DNA from: Azospirillum sp. | GTDB lineage: Bacteria > Pseudomonadota > Alphaproteobacteria > Azospirillales > Azospirillaceae | Reading direction: 5' to 3' | Assembly (NCBI GenBank): GCA_027486405.1 | Contig: JAIXPD010000078.1 | Location: forward strand, 62,001-126,000 | Length of the DNA: 64,000 nucleotides | Part shown: positions 24,099-62,790 of the stretch, piece after piece | How positions within the stretch are numbered: position 1 is the stretch's first letter | How the letters are laid out: each line of letters begins with the position of its first letter | Translations under genes and position numbers: made by a program | Notes under the pieces: generated by a model | The model's database searches: none | What the model was told of the DNA's origin: nothing | The model's input: the letters and a program-made list of their open reading frames with translations, nothing else

Positions 24099-24956
24099 TC
24101 AGTCCTCCGCCAGCAAGCGGCCAATGGCGGCGTGCAGTTCGGCCAGACGGTCGCGGTGCGCGTCGGTCAGGCCCGCGCGTGCAGCCTTCAGCGCCTCGAC
24201 CTCGCGCGCGATCAGTTTGACGCTTTTGGCGGCGCGCAGGGCCAGCGTCTCGACTTCGGTGTTGGCGGCTTCGGCCTTTTTGGCGACGCGGAGTTGCTGG
24301 ACGGTCAGGCCGTCCGCCGCCTTGCGCCACAACCGCCGCTGCGCGGCCTCCTCACCCACCTCGGCGATTTCGCGCAGCACGGTGGCGCTGACCCGCCGGG
24401 CGCGGTTGGCCTGATAATCGACCAGAATGTCAGCGGGCAGGCGCAGCACCGCCAGCGATTTGGTGACGACGGTGGCGTCCTTGCCGATCAGCGCGCCGAG
24501 CGCGTCGTGGGTGTAGCCGTGAATGTCGATCAGGCGTTCCAGCCCACGGGCGAAATCGACGGCGTCGAGATCCTCCCGCAGGACATTTTCGATGATCGCG
24601 ATCTCTTCGGGCTTGCCCGCCGTGATGATGGCGAAAATCGTCGGACGGCCCAGCATGCGATGGGCGAGCAAGCGCCGCTCCCCAGCGACCAGCCGGTAGG
24701 CCCCGCGCTCGGGCAACTCGGCCACCAGGATCGGTTGCTGCAAGCCGTGCGACGCGATGGAATCGGCCAGCGCCCGCAGCGCGTCCGGTTCGAACACCGT
24801 GCGCGGTTGGTCCGGGTTGTTGCGGATGGCCTCGACATCGACCTCGATCAGGCGGGGAAAGTTGCCGGACACCCCGGCCAAGCCATCGACCACGCCGATG
24901 CCGCCTTGGTCATAGGCCCCAACGCGGGTTGGTTTGCGCACGAGCTTAGGCGGCAT
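24099..24956 (-). CDS. parB: ParB-family partition protein
   Basis: A 285-residue ParB/RepB-type protein that binds centromere sites and loads onto DNA using CTP. The family motifs are RNNPDQPRTVFEPDALRALADSI (about residues 46-68), the CTP-binding GERRLLAH (about 93) and ENVLREDLDAVDFARGLERL (about 123). A helix-turn-helix follows (THDALGALIGKDATVVTKSLAVLRLP), then an alanine-rich helical C-terminus for dimerisation. It overlaps the end of parA by 11 bases, so the two are translationally coupled. Compared with chromosomal ParB it has plasmid-type features, supporting a plasmid or chromid. Confidence 0.93.
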   Translation of the reverse strand: MPPKLVRKPTRVGAYDQGGIGVVDGLAGVSGNFPRLIEVDVEAIRNNPDQPRTVFEPDALRALADSIASHGLQQPILVAELPERGAYRLVAGERRLLAHRMLGRPTIFAIITAGKPEEIAIIENVLREDLDAVDFARGLERLIDIHGYTHDALGALIGKDATVVTKSLAVLRLPADILVDYQANRARRVSATVLREIAEVGEEAAQRRLWRKAADGLTVQQLRVAKKAEAANTEVETLALRAAKSVKLIAREVEALKAARAGLTDAHRDRLAELHAAIGRLLAED

Positions 24957-25986
24957 CGGTTCCCTCCATCCGTTCGGCGGCGTCGATCAGGTCGCGCGCG
25001 ATGGCGACGTAGCTTTCGACCCCCGGCACACCGGGATCGGCGGCCAGGGTGATCGTCTGCGCGGCGGACGCCTGGGCGTAAATCGCGCTGCGCGGGACCG
25101 GCTCATACACCTTGAAGCGTGGCCCCCAAAGGCTGTTGATCTCCTCCAGCGAGGCGCGGTCCTGCGTCTGCCGCGCGTTGTACAGCGTGGGCAGGATGCC
25201 CAGCACCTTCAGGCGCGGGTTTTCCCGCTTGGTCAGCGCGCCGATGGTTTCCTGCACCAGATCCTCCACCGCCATCACGGCGAAACTTTCGGTCTGGCAG
25301 GGCATCAGCACGAAATCGGCGGCGACCAGCGCGTTCAGCGTCACCGTGCCAATCGCGGGGGCGCAATCGACGATGACAAAGTCATAGCGGTCGCCAACGC
25401 TGCGGATCACGTCGGACAGGCGGGCCAGGCGGCCAAAGGGCTGGCCGTTCAGCTCGCTTTCGGCGCGGGCGAGTGCGATGCTGGACGGCAGCAGATCCAG
25501 GTTGGGGGCCTGCTCCACCGGCACGATGGCCTCGGCCGCCTCCACCCGATCCAGGATGACGTCGGCCAGCGTGCGGCGGGCCTTGGTCAGCGCGACCAGC
25601 CGTTCCTTGTCCAATCCGACATGGACCGACGCGTTGGCCTGGCTGTCGGCGTCCACCAACAGCGTGCGATAGCCCGCACGGGCAAGGATGTAGGCGATGT
25701 TGACGGCGGATTCGGTCTTGGACGAGCCGCCCTTGGTCAGGGTGGTGGACATCACCAGCGGCCGCCCGCCACCGCGCAGCGTCCGTCCGCCCAGCGACGC
25801 GATCAGCAGGGTGCCTTCGATTTCGCGAGGGATCTTCTCGCGCTCCGTCTCCCATCGGCTGATTTTCGCCCCATCGTAACGGCGGCCCAGCGTGTCGTTC
25901 AGCCACGCCGCGAAGTCGGGTTGAGTCAAGCCCCGCCCTTCGCGGATGGCCCGCATCTCGCTCCCGTTCATCCTGCTGCCCCCCAT
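24946..25986 (-). CDS. parA: ParA-family partition ATPase with N-terminal HTH
   Basis: A 346-residue deviant-Walker ATPase that positions replicons on the nucleoid. The N-terminal 60 residues form a Cro-like helix-turn-helix (MRAIREGRGLTQPDFAAWLN, then KISRWETER), as in plasmid ParA proteins that repress their own operon. The ATPase core begins at residue 78, with TKGGSSKTESAVN as the Walker A motif (both lysines kept, but SS replaces the usual VG), then VDADSQANAS and VIVDCAPAIG. The ATG at 25986 is the longest; ATG 25971 (MNGSEMRAIRE) lies 15 bases inside and has a better distance from the predicted promoter. Confidence 0.93.
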   Translation of the reverse strand: MGGSRMNGSEMRAIREGRGLTQPDFAAWLNDTLGRRYDGAKISRWETEREKIPREIEGTLLIASLGGRTLRGGGRPLVMSTTLTKGGSSKTESAVNIAYILARAGYRTLLVDADSQANASVHVGLDKERLVALTKARRTLADVILDRVEAAEAIVPVEQAPNLDLLPSSIALARAESELNGQPFGRLARLSDVIRSVGDRYDFVIVDCAPAIGTVTLNALVAADFVLMPCQTESFAVMAVEDLVQETIGALTKRENPRLKVLGILPTLYNARQTQDRASLEEINSLWGPRFKVYEPVPRSAIYAQASAAQTITLAADPGVPGVESYVAIARDLIDAAERMEGTDAA

Positions 25987-35818: not shown

Positions 35819-36244
35819 ATGGAAACTGTGTTCGGTTCGATCCTCTCCGCGCTGGGTGCCGGTCTGCCGGTGCTGCTGCTGCAAATGGCGGTGACGCTGG
35901 TGCTGCTGGCCGCCGGTGTGGTGGTCTACACGCGCATCACCCCCTTCGACGAAGCCCGGCTGGTGGCCGACGGCAACCCGGCGGGCGGGCTGACGCTGGG
36001 CGGCTCCATCGTCGCGCTCGCCATCCCGCTGGCGGCGACGCTGGCGACCAGCACGGTGATCCTCGACATCATCCTGTGGGGGGTGGTGGCGGTGATCCTG
36101 CAACTGGTCGCCTTTGCCGTCGCCACCCTGCTGATCCGCGATCTGCGCGGCAAGATCGAGGGCGGCAACGTCGCCTCGGCCACCACGCTGGTCGGCATCC
36201 AGATCGGCGTCGCCCTGATCAACGCCGCCGCCATGGCCGGGTGA
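35819..36244 (+). CDS. DUF350 (YjfL-like) membrane protein
   Basis: A 141-residue protein with four hydrophobic helices. The DUF350 pattern is YTRITPFDEARLVADGNPAGGLTLGGSIVALAIPLA (residues about 37-72). Family members are small inner-membrane proteins of unknown function that co-occur with PspA-like and YjfK-like proteins. It sits 67 bases after the DUF2491 gene and 167 before the PspA-like gene. Confidence 0.88.
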   Translation: METVFGSILSALGAGLPVLLLQMAVTLVLLAAGVVVYTRITPFDEARLVADGNPAGGLTLGGSIVALAIPLAATLATSTVILDIILWGVVAVILQLVAFAVATLLIRDLRGKIEGGNVASATTLVGIQIGVALINAAAMAG

Positions 36245-36257
36245 AACGCGCTCAAAA

Positions 36258-36287
36258 AAGCCCCCCAAGCGGTAAGGACAGGGGCTT
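36258..36287. repeat. Iteron copy inside a hairpin loop, upstream of the PspA-like gene
   Basis: CCCCCAAGCGGTAAGGA (36262-36278) is identical to the origin iteron on its plus-strand orientation. Its ends lie in a 7-bp stem (AAGCCCC at 36258-36264, GGGGCTT at 36281-36287), and a T-run follows on the minus strand. It is about 3.4 kb from the main iteron cluster, in the gap between the DUF350 and PspA-like genes. Confidence 0.85.
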
Positions 36288-36411
36288 GCGCCGGAGGGTG
36301 AAGGCACCCCATCTGTAGGCCAGTCCGGTCCCGACCGGGCGCGTTGCCGTCCGTCGACACTGATTTGTTACTCTCAGAACCAACCAACCCCGTTGAACAG
36401 GAAAATTCCGC

Positions 36412-37179
36412 ATGCTCTCCTTCATCCGCAACCTTCTTGGCGTGAAGACCGATCAAGCCGTTCAGGGCGCCGTGGAGGCGCTGGTGCGTTGGGACCCCAA
36501 ATCCGCCACCGAGGCGGAATTGCGGACCATGGAGCAGCATCTGGACGATCTGGGCCGTCAAGTGGCCGAAGCGCGCGCCGTCTATGACCGCGAGCAGCGC
36601 GAGGCCGACGCGATCAAGGCCCTGTCAGCCCAGCGCATGGCCGCCGCCGAGCATCTGCAAAGCCAACTGGCGGGCGAAAGCGACCCGGCCCGTCAGGCCG
36701 CGCTGACCAAGAGCCTGGAGACCATCGTCGCCATGCTGGAAGAGATGGCCCCCGAGATTGAGCGCGAAACCAAGGACGCGGTGGACGCCCAACAGTTCCT
36801 GGAAATGCTGGAAAAGAGCTACGCCGACGCCGGGGCCAAGCTGAAATCCGCCCGCGCGGAGCTGGTGCGCGCCCAACGCGACATGGGCCGCGCCGAACAG
36901 CAGCGCGACATGGCCGAACGCCAGGCCGAAGCCGCCCGCCGTGCCGCCGGTCTGGCCCAGACCACCAGCGGCCTGACCGTGGCGCTGAAGGCGATGCAGG
37001 ACAGTGCGGCCAAGGATCTGGCCGCCGCCGAAGCCGCCAACGCCAAGGCCAAGCTGCTGACCCCGACCGCCCCGGAACAGGAAGACCCCAACATCGCCGC
37101 CGCCATGGCCGCCGCGTCGGGCAAGCCCGCCGCCTCCAGCCTGTCGGACCGTCTGGCCGCGCTGAAGTCCAAGGGCTGA
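36412..37179 (+). CDS. PspA/IM30-like coiled-coil protein (YjfJ-like)
   Basis: A 255-residue, almost wholly helical protein with long heptad runs (AEARAVYDREQREADAIKALSAQRM; KLKSARAELVRAQRDMGRAEQQRDMAERQAEAARRA) and a short hydrophobic N-terminus (MLSFIRNLLGVK). This fits the PspA/IM30 membrane-remodelling family, which oligomerises on stressed inner membranes. With YjfK- and YjfL-like neighbours it matches the enterobacterial yjfJKL arrangement. Membrane maintenance is the expected role by family; no PspF-type activator or sigma-54 promoter was identified nearby. Confidence 0.82.
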   Translation: MLSFIRNLLGVKTDQAVQGAVEALVRWDPKSATEAELRTMEQHLDDLGRQVAEARAVYDREQREADAIKALSAQRMAAAEHLQSQLAGESDPARQAALTKSLETIVAMLEEMAPEIERETKDAVDAQQFLEMLEKSYADAGAKLKSARAELVRAQRDMGRAEQQRDMAERQAEAARRAAGLAQTTSGLTVALKAMQDSAAKDLAAAEAANAKAKLLTPTAPEQEDPNIAAAMAAASGKPAASSLSDRLAALKSKG

Positions 37180-37217: not shown

Positions 37218-37255
37218 TTGACGCCATTGGTGTAAAGAACTACTTTACACCAATG
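37218..37255 (+). promoter_or_regulatory. higBA promoter and operator
   Basis: A perfect 13-bp inverted repeat with a 5-base spacer (arm CATTGGTGTAAAG, 37225-37255) includes the higB start codon. Upstream is TTGACG (37218-37223), and 17 bases further TACTTT (37241-37246) could serve as -10. A start 7 bases later would fall on the A of the ATG, giving a leaderless message. HigA dimers are expected to bind the dyad and repress. Confidence 0.75.
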
Positions 37256-37531
37256 GTTCGCACCATCCGCAACAAGCCGCTTCGGCATTTTTTTGAAACC
37301 GGTCAATCCGGCAAACTCCCGGTCCAGGGGGCTGCCGTGACGCGCGTCAGCCGCGTTCTGCGGGCGCTCGATGTGGCGGGGAAACCGGAGGACATGAACC
37401 TTCCCGGCTACCATTTCCACGGCCTGGAAGGGGAACGTCGCTGGTCCGTGCGGGTAACAGCCAATTGGCGCGTTACCTTCGGCTGGGACGGCGTGGACGC
37501 CATCGATGTCGATTTGGAGGATTACCACTGA
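37253..37531 (+). CDS. higB: HigB-type toxin (RelE superfamily)
   Basis: A 92-residue HigB mRNA interferase, which cleaves mRNA on the ribosome when free of antitoxin. The family pattern is visible: IRNKPLRHFFETG at the N-terminus, RVLRALDVAGKPEDMNLPGYHFHGLEG in the middle, and RWSVRVTANWRVTFGW followed by DVDLEDYH at the end. The toxin gene precedes the antitoxin gene, the typical hig order, and overlaps it by one base (TGATG). Placed next to repA, it probably acts as a replicon-addiction module. Confidence 0.94.
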   Translation: MVRTIRNKPLRHFFETGQSGKLPVQGAAVTRVSRVLRALDVAGKPEDMNLPGYHFHGLEGERRWSVRVTANWRVTFGWDGVDAIDVDLEDYH

Positions 37532-37842
37532 TGAGCGACGCTCCCATCACGCGGGGCCTCCCCGCCATGCACCCCGGCGAACTGCTGCGCGAAGACATCC
37601 TTCCGGCCTTTGGTCGCCCCGTGTCAGACATCGCCAAGCTGTTGAAAGTCTCCCGCCAGACCCTGCACGCCATCTTGCGCGAAGAAGCCCCCGTGACCGC
37701 CGCCATGGCCCTGCGGTTGGGGAAGCTTTGCGGCAACGGCCCCGAGCTGTGGACGAATTTGCAAACCCGCCACGACCTGGATCGCCTCGCCCGCGAATTG
37801 AGCAGCGAACTCGCCGAAATTCCCACCCTGAACGCCGCTTGA
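37531..37842 (+). CDS. higA: HigA-type antitoxin
   Basis: A 103-residue XRE-type helix-turn-helix antitoxin: MHPGELLREDILPAFGRPVSDIAKLLKVSRQTLHAILRE (residues about 13-51) is the HigA signature, then AAMALRLGKLCGNGPELWTNLQTRHDL. It neutralises HigB and represses the operon. The ATG at 37531 overlaps the toxin stop. The gene converges on repA, with only 12 bases between their stop codons; the gap contains the start of an iteron-like sequence. Confidence 0.95.
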   Translation: MSDAPITRGLPAMHPGELLREDILPAFGRPVSDIAKLLKVSRQTLHAILREEAPVTAAMALRLGKLCGNGPELWTNLQTRHDLDRLARELSSELAEIPTLNAA

Positions 37843-37851
37843 TATCCCCTA

Positions 37852-37869
37852 TCCTTACGCCTTGGGGGC
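37852..37869. repeat. Iteron-like sequence containing the repA stop codon
   Basis: TCCTTACGCCTTGGGGGC matches the origin iteron TCCTTACCGCTTGGGGGC except at two adjacent positions. On the minus strand it encodes the last residues Pro-Lys-Ala and the TAA stop of repA (37855-37857). Confidence 0.75.
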
Positions 37870-39246
37870 GGCGTCCTTCGTGGAACGGCGGGCGGGGACG
37901 GTGAAATCGACGTCCTCGATCAGGCCGCTGGTCAGCGAGGACAGGGCGGATTTGAAGGTCGGCCAATGGTTCATGCGGGCGGTGTCGGCCACCGCCGCCT
38001 TGCGCACCGACAGGATCAGACGCCGCCCGCCCTGGGGGGTGTCCTCCACCCGTTCCGGGGCCAGTTCGGCCAGCAGCGGGGCGGGAACCTTGCCCTTCAG
38101 CGCGTGCAGCACCGCCGCCCACAGGGCGGTGACGTCGTCGGCGTCGGGCAGGGGGCCGAGATCGGCCAGACCGGCGTCCACCGGGCTGGCGGGGGCGACC
38201 TGATCGACGCTGCCGATGCGGCGGGCGCGGCGTCCGGCGCTGTGGCGTTCGCGCTCCAGATAGGTTTCGGCGGCCTCCTCCTCGTCCTTGGCGAGGAAAT
38301 CGAGCGTCACCGCCTCCACCTTGCGGCCCTTCCGCTTCATCTTGTCCTCCGGCATCGTCACGCGGAAGGGGGCGAGCTGGTTGACCTCCGCAATCGCGCG
38401 GTCGATGGTGCGGGTGCGCAGGATGCCGAAATCCTTGTAGGCCCCCTCCGGCACGTTCAGCAGCTTGCGCAGCGTGTCGATGTCGAGTTCCAGCGAGGGG
38501 AAATCCATCTGATAGCGCTGCATCCCGATCTCGTAGAGCTTCAGCGCGTAGGTGCTGGTGACTTTGACCATCGCCGGCCCCGACAGCTTGGCCCAGAGCT
38601 GGGACGAGCGTTGGATTTCCAGAAAGGCGTCGGTGAACTGGAAATGGATGTCGGCGGCGTCGCTGTCCTCCTCCTCCTCCGGGCGGACGTAGCTGCTGAG
38701 GATGCGCAGTTCGGCGCGCGACCGCCGTCCGCGAAAGGGGCCGATGACCACAAGGCTGGAGTCGAAAATCTCCTTCAGCGCGTCAAAAATCCGCTCGTTG
38801 CCCTTGTGGTTGCCGCGCACCACCCGCTTGGGCAGGCGGTAGAGCTTGTTGGCGAAATTCTGGCTGCCCGCCAGATGGATCATGAAGTTCAACATCTTCT
38901 GCGCGGGCAGCGACAGACGGGTCCCGTTGGCCGGGTAGCTGTAAACCGCCTCCGCCGCCTTGATCAGATGCTTGTAGCCGTCGCGCTCAAAGGTCGCGCT
39001 GGCCACCCGCGCCGTCAGGCCAACGGCGGCGGCGGGGCCGACCGCCGTGCCAGCGTCTTCCGGCGGCAAAACCGCCATGGCGGGAACCGTCAAGGCCGGA
39101 ACCGGCAGACCGACGTCGTCGCCACCACCCTCCAGGATCGCACCACCGCCCGCCAGATCGCCCGGAGCCAAAACGGCAAGCGCGCCCGTCGACGGCGTGT
39201 CCCCCACCGCCGCACCCCGCGCCTTCCTGCGTCCCGTTCCCGCCAT
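37855..39246 (-). CDS. repA: Plasmid/chromid replication initiator, Rep_3-like
   Basis: A 463-residue initiator. The central part carries the paired winged-helix pattern of Rep_3 (RepB/RepE-type) proteins: LSLPAQKMLNFMIHLA (about residue 105), VTSTYALKLYEIGMQRYQ (about 232), then LDIDTLRKLLNVPEGAYKDFGILRTRTIDRAIAEVN (about 258-293). An extra N-terminal 75 residues are Pro/Ala/Gly-rich and the C-terminal 130 residues are extra compared with small-plasmid initiators. The start at 39246 has a strong AGGAGGT site. The gene points away from the iteron cluster, and half-iterons overlap its leader, as expected of autoregulated initiators. Confidence 0.88.
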   Translation of the reverse strand: MAGTGRRKARGAAVGDTPSTGALAVLAPGDLAGGGAILEGGGDDVGLPVPALTVPAMAVLPPEDAGTAVGPAAAVGLTARVASATFERDGYKHLIKAAEAVYSYPANGTRLSLPAQKMLNFMIHLAGSQNFANKLYRLPKRVVRGNHKGNERIFDALKEIFDSSLVVIGPFRGRRSRAELRILSSYVRPEEEEDSDAADIHFQFTDAFLEIQRSSQLWAKLSGPAMVKVTSTYALKLYEIGMQRYQMDFPSLELDIDTLRKLLNVPEGAYKDFGILRTRTIDRAIAEVNQLAPFRVTMPEDKMKRKGRKVEAVTLDFLAKDEEEAAETYLERERHSAGRRARRIGSVDQVAPASPVDAGLADLGPLPDADDVTALWAAVLHALKGKVPAPLLAELAPERVEDTPQGGRRLILSVRKAAVADTARMNHWPTFKSALSSLTSGLIEDVDFTVPARRSTKDAAPKA

Positions 39247-39285
39247 CGCGACCTCCTGCCCCGCAACCGTCGGAGGCTAGATCAA

Positions 39286-39310
39286 TCCTTACCTCAAAAA
39301 CAAGTAAGGA
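39286..39310. promoter_or_regulatory. Half-iteron inverted repeat upstream of repA (autorepression operator)
   Basis: TCCTTAC (39286-39292) and GTAAGGA (39304-39310) form an inverted pair separated by 11 bases. TCCTTAC is exactly the first seven bases of the origin iteron. It lies 40-64 bases upstream of the repA start. In iteron plasmids Rep dimers repress their gene at inverted half-iterons, so this arrangement is diagnostic. Confidence 0.8.
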
Positions 39311-39337
39311 AAGGTTTTGCCGTCCGACGCCCGCGAA

Positions 39338-39492
39338 CCCTTACCGCTTGGGGGCAGCCTGGAGGCACAAGCCTTACGCCCTGGGGCGTGAGGGTGCAGC
39401 CCCCGCCCGGTAAGGACCATTCCCCCGAGGGGTAAGGAAGATTCGCCCCGACTCGTGGAGTCCTCTGGGGTTTTGCGACGACGAATCCTTAC
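39338..39492. repeat. Proximal iterons, one good and three degenerate, plus a half-site
   Basis: A near-perfect copy lies at 39338-39355 (CCCTTACCGCTTGGGGGC). Degenerate copies follow at 39372-39387, 39400-39416 and 39422-39438 (CCCCCGAGGGGTAAGGA), the last two in the opposite orientation. A half-site TCCTTAC is at 39486-39492. The graded quality suggests weaker Rep sites between the operator and the main cluster. Confidence 0.75.
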
Positions 39493-39620
39493 TGAAAGGG
39501 AACAGAGTCGGTGGAGCGGATCCGTGTCGGACGCTTGCAGCGTTCACAACGCGGCAAAAAGGGCGGAAAAGCACAGCACCGATGGATTCGCCGCGACTCG
39601 GAACAGCCAATGCGCCCATA

Positions 39621-39923
39621 TCCTTACCGCTTGGGGGCCGTTTTCAACGTCGAGAGGGGAAAATGCGGGGGTCAAGGAGTCTGGCTCAGGATCCTTACCG
39701 CTTGGGGGCTATTGGTCCGCCTTTTATCGGTGGCGTGGAGGCCCCCAAGCGGTAAGGATGACCCGCGTAAGGCTTTTCCGAGTCGCAAGGGAGAGGGTTC
39801 AAGCAACCGCAAGGCAGAGAATGCCCCCAAGCGGTAAGGGATGGCCATCGAGCATCCTTACGGCTTGGGGGCGCAGACCAAGGTTCGATCACGCATCCCG
39901 GCTCATCCCCCAAGCGGTAAGGA
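39621..39923. repeat. Main iteron cluster (six 18-bp copies, mixed orientation)
   Basis: Consensus TCCTTACCGCTTGGGGGC. Copies on the plus strand are at 39621-39638 and 39692-39709 (both perfect) and 39855-39872 (one mismatch). Reverse-complement copies are at 39741-39758 (perfect), 39823-39840 and 39906-39923 (one end mismatch each). Start-to-start spacings are 71, 49, 82, 32 and 51 bases. Most iteron origins use regularly spaced direct repeats, so the mixed orientation and irregular spacing are unusual. These are the expected Rep monomer binding sites. Confidence 0.9.
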
Positions 39924-39947
39924 TGGAACCGGGGGTTTCGGGTTAAG

Positions 39948-40700
39948 TTACGGAAACGCCAGCAGAAAGACGCCTTGGCTGAGATAGACGCTGGCGGTTC
40001 CCATCACAAGATCGCGGCTCCAGCGGCGGAACTGGGCGTCGCTCATGCGATCCAGGGCGCGGCGCGACAGGTTGGTCCCCAGCAAAGCCATGACAATCGA
40101 CAAAAGAATCACCACCGCTTCCACCGTTTGACCGGATCCGCCCCCGATCATCGGAGCGAAGTAAGCGACCTTGATCGCGTGCCCGAAGACCTGGGTCGTG
40201 GCTTTCGTCGCGACGACGCTTTGCCGGGGCATGTCCGAACGGACGAAAAACACGTCCAACAACGGGCCGGAGATGCCCGCCACCAACTGCACCCCCATGC
40301 ACAACAGACCGGCGAGCCAACCATGCAGCGGCTTTTGCGCGTCCAGCGCCCAGCGCTGGGGAACCGCCAGGGCCAAGTAAGGGGTCAAACCCAGGATCAG
40401 CAGCGAGACACCACGGTCCGGGACCGCGCCAAACAGGGCGAACAACCCGGCGGCCACCGCAGCACCACCGCAAAAGCGGCCAACGATGGGCCACTCGACC
40501 CGATCACGCCACAGCCACGCGCGCCAGCCGTTGGAGGTGAATTGGGTGATGCCGTGCAGCAGCATGGCGGCGGGGACCGGCAGCAGCATCAACAGCAGTC
40601 CCATCAGCACCATGCCGCCCGCCATCCCGAACAGCCCTGACAAAAACGAGGTGGCAAGCACGGTGAGGCCAAGCCCCGCCATCATGGGAAGCGTCAGCAT
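39948..40700 (-). CDS. TSUP-family (TauE/SafE) membrane transporter
   Basis: A 250-residue integral membrane protein with about eight hydrophobic helices in two related halves, typical of the TauE/SafE group that exports sulfite or organosulfonates or takes up sulfur compounds. The family motif region is SFLSGLFGMAGGMVLMGLLL at the N-terminus; the second half has LVAGISGPLLDVFFVRSDMPRQ. The substrate is not resolved. It borders the origin region, and its leader (40731-40740) contains GTAAGGATGG, identical to ten bases around one iteron. Confidence 0.87.
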   Translation of the reverse strand: MLTLPMMAGLGLTVLATSFLSGLFGMAGGMVLMGLLLMLLPVPAAMLLHGITQFTSNGWRAWLWRDRVEWPIVGRFCGGAAVAAGLFALFGAVPDRGVSLLILGLTPYLALAVPQRWALDAQKPLHGWLAGLLCMGVQLVAGISGPLLDVFFVRSDMPRQSVVATKATTQVFGHAIKVAYFAPMIGGGSGQTVEAVVILLSIVMALLGTNLSRRALDRMSDAQFRRWSRDLVMGTASVYLSQGVFLLAFP

Positions 40701-62738: not shown

Positions 62739-62773
62739 GGCCAAATCCACGGATGCCCGCCGCCCCCGCGCCT

Positions 62774-62790
62774 CCCCCAAGGGGTAAGGA
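62774..62790 (+). repeat. Remote iteron-like copy in the gluconate-operon 3' region
   Basis: CCCCCAAGGGGTAAGGA matches the origin iteron CCCCCAAGCGGTAAGGA at 16 of 17 positions. It lies between the TRAP gene stop and the operon terminator, about 23 kb from repA. Confidence 0.75.

Follow-up and report, generated by a model that had tools for sequence, protein, structure and literature searches.

A probable Rep_3-type replication origin with dispersed, two-way iterons on large Azospirillaceae replicons

In a 64,000-nucleotide stretch of an Azospirillum sp. genome (assembly GCA_027486405.1, contig JAIXPD010000078.1, positions 62,001 to 126,000; hereafter the window), six near-perfect 18-mers lie upstream of rep, which encodes a 463-residue Rep_3-type initiator. 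An earlier sequence-only reading gave their orientations as (+,+,-,-,+,-) and their spacings as 71, 49, 82, 32, and 51 bases, and proposed that they belong to a distinct class of origin. Are these scattered sites an origin of replication and, if so, is it of a new kind? We find that positions 39247-39947 are very probably a replication origin of the Rep_3 iteron type. The observation is confirmed and extended, and its interpretation is supported in part: this would be a Rep_3 iteron origin of a previously known kind, in a new variant layout and with an unusual initiator.

Sites and operator upstream of rep

A pattern search found all six 18-mers again, in the same orientations and at the same spacings (three exact and three with one mismatch). 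At up to three mismatches, there were 12 matches in the window, as compared to a mean of 0.11 and a maximum of 1 in 100 dinucleotide-preserving shuffles. The assembly (5.49 Mb in 96 contigs, 93.7% complete) has 12 matches to the core pattern TCCTTACN5GGGGG, every one of them on the window's own contig (C7, 161,751 bp), and none to the reversed control. Besides the six sites, which we call the distal cluster, four less perfect sites adjoin rep at 39338-39438. This proximal cluster, like the half-sites and the outlying copies listed below, is absent from the earlier reading. It brings the total beside rep to ten, so the multiple initiator-type repeats of 17-22 bp that characterize Rep_3 iteron replicons are present. 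A likely operator that by sequence shares the iteron half-site, another Rep_3 characteristic, lies between the proximal cluster and rep. The features are as follows; sites were found by the pattern search unless another source is given.

37855..39246, minus strand: rep, 463-residue Rep_3-type initiator (Pfam, fold match, and orthologues)
39286..39310, no strand: inverted half-sites TCCTTAC-N11-GTAAGGA upstream of rep, likely the rep operator
39338..39355, plus strand: iteron, proximal cluster
39371..39388, plus strand: iteron, proximal cluster, degenerate but conserved (alignment of six origins)
39399..39416, minus strand: iteron, proximal cluster
39421..39438, minus strand: iteron, proximal cluster, follows the 39399 site head to tail at a spacing of 22 bp
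39621..39638, plus strand: iteron, distal cluster
39692..39709, plus strand: iteron, distal cluster
39741..39758, minus strand: iteron, distal cluster
39823..39840, minus strand: iteron, distal cluster
39855..39872, plus strand: iteron, distal cluster, flipped relative to most Azospirillum relatives (pattern search and cross-genome comparison)
39906..39923, minus strand: iteron, distal cluster
37852..37869, plus strand: outlying site at the 3' end of rep
36261..36278, minus strand: outlying site between a DUF350 gene and a gene for a 255-residue protein
62773..62790, minus strand: outlying copy with two mismatches, overlapped by open frames and of doubtful role

Further copies lie on the same contig, outside the origin, at C7:31942 and C7:150327. 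Iterons usually, though not by strict requirement, form a head-to-tail array with copies one or two helical turns apart. The window does not have this layout: apart from the pairs in the proximal cluster, no head-to-tail array was seen in the rep region.

GC skew in relatives also points to an origin at this locus. We took 20 samples of 20 kb from each of two replicons that carry this locus. The samples are separated by gaps (12 kb on AZO_p4 and 60 kb on CBAmc chromosome 3), so a skew switch is placed only to within a gap. On both replicons the skew changes sign at or adjoining the locus, within the sampling step. On AZO_p4, where the iterons lie at 116 kb and rep occupies 117-118 kb, the skew is negative in the samples from 0-116 kb and positive from 128 to 340 kb. 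Beyond 340 kb it falls to about zero and then turns mostly negative (one sample, at 576 kb, is clearly positive), which places the far switch at about 340-400 kb, not exactly opposite the origin. On CBAmc chromosome 3, the skew is positive in 10 of the 12 samples from 0-900 kb and negative in seven of the eight later ones, and rep, at 1,601-1,603 kb, adjoins position 0. (The sample at 960 kb, which has a GC content of 0.32, probably because of masked bases, was retained.)

Between -760 and +60 of rep in the window, we found no DnaA box at up to two mismatches; five relatives have 0-2 weak ones each. We also considered whether other replicons carry a crtS-like site. Among nine off-replicon copies of the site in other genomes examined, none was recognized as such. 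Two pairs of these are duplicates (L061/L062 and L065/L066), and the flanks are alike in L058/L067 (74% across an aligned 1,150 bp that does not include the sites) and in L065/L067. No context common to all nine was seen, so chance is the likely explanation.

Conservation and derivation of the layout

If these sites belong to the initiator, they should accompany it. On five complete Azospirillum plasmids (records of 361 to 728 kb), Rep is 85-94% identical from residue 80 to residues 448-455, and 7 to 12 exact pattern matches lie near rep. They spread over 0.5 to 6 kb on four plasmids and 16 kb on oryzae p3, and the reversed control had no matches on any of the five. In an alignment of six origins, the iterons and the operator, whose half-sites are kept, form conserved islands in otherwise diverged sequence. 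Rep is present (E up to 1e-20) in 27 of 45 Azospirillum genomes. All 27 have 7-15 pattern matches, while 14 of the 18 genomes without Rep have none and the other four have one; the reversed control had 0-2 across the 45 genomes. (The contig placement of these matches is known for the genomes listed only.) Outside the genus, sites and operator accompany all 15 Reps examined that are 72-79% identical; the distant Reps of G054 (35%) and G065 (31%) do not have such iterons upstream. Thus, the same 18-mer was looked for beside rep in homologous replicons and found; its absence there, which would have spoken against the sequence-only reading, was not observed.

There are 46 genomes in the family with a Rep match. 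Setting apart G054 and G065, as well as G072 and G073, which are cut by contig ends, we counted 42 origins: the window, 26 others from Azospirillum, and 15 from outside the genus. Every one has the operator, at least seven sites, both iteron orientations, and a dispersed layout. The mixed orientation and dispersal that the sequence-only reading described are therefore real and conserved. Toward rep, the commonest order is ++++-- and then ++-- (17 of 42); in the window and four near relatives, the second site is reversed relative to this order. Spacings are near-constant in the 20 tabulated ten-site genomes and more variable in the window and outlying species. In 33 loci (from Azospirillum, Nitrospirillum, Niveispirillum, Aerophototrophica, and one unclassified alphaproteobacterium), there are always 8-12 sites near the operator, including 12 and 11 in two loci that are cut short by sequence ends (L097 and L098). 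A site near the 3' end of rep, like the one at 37852, is found in 22 of the 31 loci that reach that place. The site at 36261 has a counterpart in the same intergenic place on AZO_p4, ramasamyi p3, oryzae p3, and pAB510d.

We tried two further candidates for conserved structure and rejected both. For helical phasing, the distinct spacing changes among the 20 genomes are 1-3 or 9-11 bp, and the window and outlying species add 8, 13, 13, 14, and 37; over all of these, p is about 0.002 against a simple uniform null, which is suggestive only. As for an AT-rich unwinding element, strain 4B, ramasamyi, and oryzae have an AT-rich stretch before the first iteron, and it is not retained in the window.

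To ask where the layout came from, we turned to 232 plasmid records with a related Rep and examined the upstream regions of the five Azospirillum plasmids and of 12 distant relatives on public plasmids (Rep 25-37% identical). The site patterns for the distant relatives were defined after the repeats were visible (L148, L149; later L153, L154, L157, L158). Seven sphingomonad plasmids have five sites, CCTGAC-N5-GGGG or variants, at 19-22 bp and in one orientation, with an extra copy 143-174 bp further on and an operator CCTGAC...GTCAGG. Brevundimonas has four sites at 22 bp, plus an operator. S. xenophagum and Novosphingobium pTHN (1.16 Mb) have 11 and 10 dispersed sites in one orientation with a different half-site (of the GAG-N5-GGGG type). 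In Gemmobacter (311 kb) and P. denitrificans (654 kb), CTTAC-like sites run mainly one way, with one inverted copy. An operator was looked for in these last four and not found.

In eight of the 12, the same T-to-G change is common to iteron and operator, good evidence for a single protein, Rep, that recognizes the two. In these eight relatives, with Reps 32-37% identical, a bipartite site closely resembling ours is set in textbook arrays, so the claim of a distinct origin class is not supported. Instead, because distant homologues use similar sites head to tail, the Azospirillaceae layout is a rearranged form of a known kind. The sphingomonad plasmids such as pNIN3 of Sphingobium JS3065 and pSF1 of S. 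fuliginis make the comparison concrete. They share the homologous initiator core, the bipartite site, the inverted half-site operator, and 7-13 GANTC sites in the 650 bp upstream of rep; they differ in that their iterons run head to tail and in the C-terminal sequence of their translated initiators.

The initiator, the GANTC-rich spacer, and how the origin may work

The sequence-only reading had called the initiator Rep_3-like with extra N- and C-terminal domains; the Rep_3 type and the extra C-terminal domain are supported. Pfam's Rep3_C scores 42 bits against a cut-off of 21.1. Rep3_N scores 18.2 bits, under its cut-off of 22.4 (E = 0.0033); with E allowed up to 10, it matches 24 of the 24 members aligned, the best at 1.3e-4. 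RepE and pi are the top fold matches of the winged helix 2 region (RepE on model residues 223-320). Both winged helices of a Rep_3 initiator are thus found, with Rep3_N weak in this member.

38527..38919, minus strand: Rep winged helix 1, residues 110-240 (Rep3_N)
38296..38481, minus strand: Rep winged helix 2, residues 256-317
37894..38145, minus strand: conserved C-terminal domain of Rep, residues 368-451, DnaA-domain-I-like (predicted model)

When the predicted model of the C-terminal domain was compared to known structures, the best match was DnaA domain I, and the predicted fold has the same order (alpha1-alpha2-beta1-beta2-alpha3-beta3). Sequence-level searches of Rep for DnaA gave no match, and hhalign of the domain against E. 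coli DnaA was weak (probability 0.5%, E = 0.12). The domain might instead be a generic KH-like fold that is unconnected to DnaA; we consider this a serious alternative, if an unlikely one. Sphingomonad Reps (L148, L149, L151, L152, L156) have another conserved C-terminal sequence, with a GGGWD...SW.GFCE-like motif.

Iteron plasmids F (RepE), R6K (pi), and pPS10 likewise have initiators with two winged helices and an operator that shares the iteron half-site, and their iterons form direct arrays in one orientation. Their initiators are not known to include a DnaA-domain-I-like domain.

The origin's spacer is dense in GANTC (CcrM-type) sites.

39440..39784, no strand: block of nine GANTC sites, at 39440, 39450, 39458, 39483, 39505, 39585, 39595, 39677, and 39780

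Across the 42 origins there are 436 GANTC in 28,656 bp, or 15.2/kb (6-17 per origin of about 0.6-0.8 kb). Samples from two of the replicons, 800 kb in total, give a background of 1.06/kb, and within the origins themselves seven other palindromes of matching base composition range over 1.1-4.1/kb. The window's GANTC-richest 500-bp stretches, among those listed, lie within 39101-39951. In the six aligned sequences, six GANTC positions upstream of rep are common to at least five, and two of these to all six. A RAMA (CcrM-type) domain was found in all four genomes tested. Two replicons with GANTC-dense origins themselves carry a ccrM-type gene: pAB510d of B510 (G021:C5, 267.6 kb) and AZO_p4, where the gene, at about 320.3 kb (L112 287-1375), is a 98.6% copy of B510's.

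We think it likely that 39247-39947 serves a large replicon of the Rep_3 type as its origin and for copy control, and that it works as follows. Rep monomers would bind the 18-bp sites, with winged helix 2 on TCCTTAC and winged helix 1 on the G-run, and Rep dimers on the inverted half-sites at 39286-39310 would repress rep. The ancestor of the distal cluster would be a common head-to-tail array with a spacing of about 22 bp, while the proximal cluster and the operator would have remained beside the promoter. Because each Rep is predicted to have a DnaA-domain-I-like module, probably on a flexible linker, molecules on distant and opposed sites may come together in a single complex, perhaps with the GANTC-rich spacer looped out; the module may also aid helicase recruitment. 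CcrM methylation of the spacer probably couples firing to the cell cycle, and Rep is probably titrated or paired at the outlying sites. The sequence itself gives the sites, their conservation and association with Rep, the skew switch at sampling resolution, and the GANTC density; the fold comes from prediction. More tentatively, a plasmid initiator may have gained a DnaA-domain-I-like module, no longer needed neighboring same-way iterons, and so given rise to a long-range, orientation-independent origin with a CcrM-timed spacer on replicons of up to 1.6 Mb; we are somewhat doubtful of this larger account.

The distal cluster could instead be a copy-control (incompatibility) locus like incA of P1, with the proximal cluster and its head-to-tail pairs as the core origin. 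The proximal spacings of 22/29/22 are invariant in the 20 tabulated ten-site genomes (in the window, the second pair is at 33 bp), and outlying sites exist. However, the head-to-tail array of the seven sphingomonad relatives is the distal element (-447 to -278 before rep), with a single iteron near the operator, so that our distal cluster is the positional heir of the array. We regard an origin confined to the proximal cluster as rather improbable.

Replicon-specific repeats close to a replication gene could also be centromere (partition) sites, and the window does have parAB (24099-25986), as G064 and G067 have a ParB_N gene near rep. But the sites follow Rep, not Par: on AZO_p4 and pAB510d, the ParA/DUF3102 genes are about 44-48 kb away, ParB_N was not found on four plasmids, and the half-site recurs, inverted, upstream of rep. 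A partition role is very unlikely. That the sites are transcription-factor boxes for the neighboring transporter and LysR genes, as their place between rep and a TauE-like gene might suggest, is hardly credible, since they remain on argentinense p5 beside other genes and are absent where Rep is absent.

Replicons and related systems

The sequence-only reading assigned the origin to large replicons, and the family does occur in several genera of Azospirillaceae, where the replicons that carry it measure 0.36 to 1.6 Mb; one is the 1.60 Mb "chromosome 3" of N. viridazoti (G064). It also set the origin apart from the usual repABC type. This is right for most replicons examined: RepC (PF03428, E up to 0.001) was not found on four of the five complete plasmids (AZO_p4, ramasamyi p3, oryzae p3, and pAB510d) nor in genomes G000, G064 (Nitrospirillum), and G067 (Niveispirillum-group). 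What fails is the word "usual," as RepC is above the cut-off in just five of 45 Azospirillum genomes (11 at E up to 0.001). This runs against a statement in one report that all non-chromosomal replicons of its strains have repABC/parAB systems (PMC3899980). A passage of the same report has p6 as the unique defined plasmid of 4B and B510, which makes p4 a chromid there (PMC3899980). Rep (291488-292816) and RepC (339506-339979) occur together on argentinense p5 (NZ_CP032326.1), which is probably a composite replicon, and both are on contig C6 of G003.

According to a passage of a 2018 review, all large alphaproteobacterial replicons usually have repABC, with iteron origins there limited to small plasmids, and iteron chromids are tied to Dam/SeqA (PMC6090056). 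The origin family described here, on replicons of 0.36 to 1.6 Mb, would occupy the niche that this passage assigns to repABC. Among the literature matches listed, judged by title or the start of the abstract, none concerned such an Azospirillum iteron origin or initiator fusion, although coverage of subscription journals is thin and this is no proof of novelty. One paper among them, PMC12456017, deals with extrachromosomal elements and mentions Azospirillum and Nitrospirillum in places.

Chromosome 2 of Vibrio cholerae, as the review excerpt describes it, is similar in being a secondary chromosome with an iteron origin, an initiator (RctB) larger than plasmid Reps, methylation sites at the origin, and several kinds of site (PMC6090056); its iterons are head-to-tail 12-mers with an internal GATC, whereas our 18-mer consensus does not contain GANTC. 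As for crtS, no counterpart was recognized among our nine off-replicon copies. The ori2 replicon of A. tumefaciens is likewise a secondary replicon of an alphaproteobacterium whose promoter and origin carry CcrM sites, and the GANTC sites of its repABC-Ch2 module matter for replication, according to part of PMC11514494; here there are iterons, 6-17 GANTC per origin, and the four plasmids without a RepC match. Staphylococcal RepA_N initiators, in the section seen of PMC5703833, also resemble a host replication protein (DnaD), with a different initiator family and module.

Iteron orientation matters in well-studied plasmids, according to an excerpt of PMC4980987. The replicons compared here form a natural series (head to tail, dispersed one-way, and dispersed two-way, with and without the DnaA-I-like domain) for asking why iterons normally line up. 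Similarly, the dense GANTC origin is a system for asking how, in the absence of SeqA, the timing of a secondary chromosome might depend on methylation. If the gain of a module did occur as suggested above, Azospirillaceae would have an iteron-based, cell-cycle-tuned origin for replicons of up to 1.6 Mb.

Among other large replicons, Novosphingobium pTHN (1.16 Mb, L154) and P. denitrificans plasmid 1 (654 kb, L158) carry Rep_3-like genes with iteron-like sites upstream. As for partition genes, the parAB pair of the window (24099-25986, minus strand) is on the rep contig, and its ParA has, by eye, an N-terminal helix-turn-helix-like stretch. No ParB_N domain was found on the four complete plasmids searched. 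The ParA + DUF3102 pairs of AZO_p4 (L142 14104-14856 and 13352-14086) and pAB510d (L143 14716-15339 and 13925-14713) may possibly be an unusual partition system.

Downstream of rep, positions 35819-37179 of the window hold the DUF350 gene and the gene for the 255-residue protein, which has no Pfam match; outlying iterons lie beside the latter in several loci. We considered it as a conserved partner bracketed by sites and rejected this: of 38 loci searched, 17 have it near rep, each of them from a named Azospirillum, and in Niveispirillum the sites bracket another gene. Directly downstream of rep, at 37253-37842 on the plus strand, is a pair of genes resembling a HigB toxin and a helix-turn-helix antitoxin.
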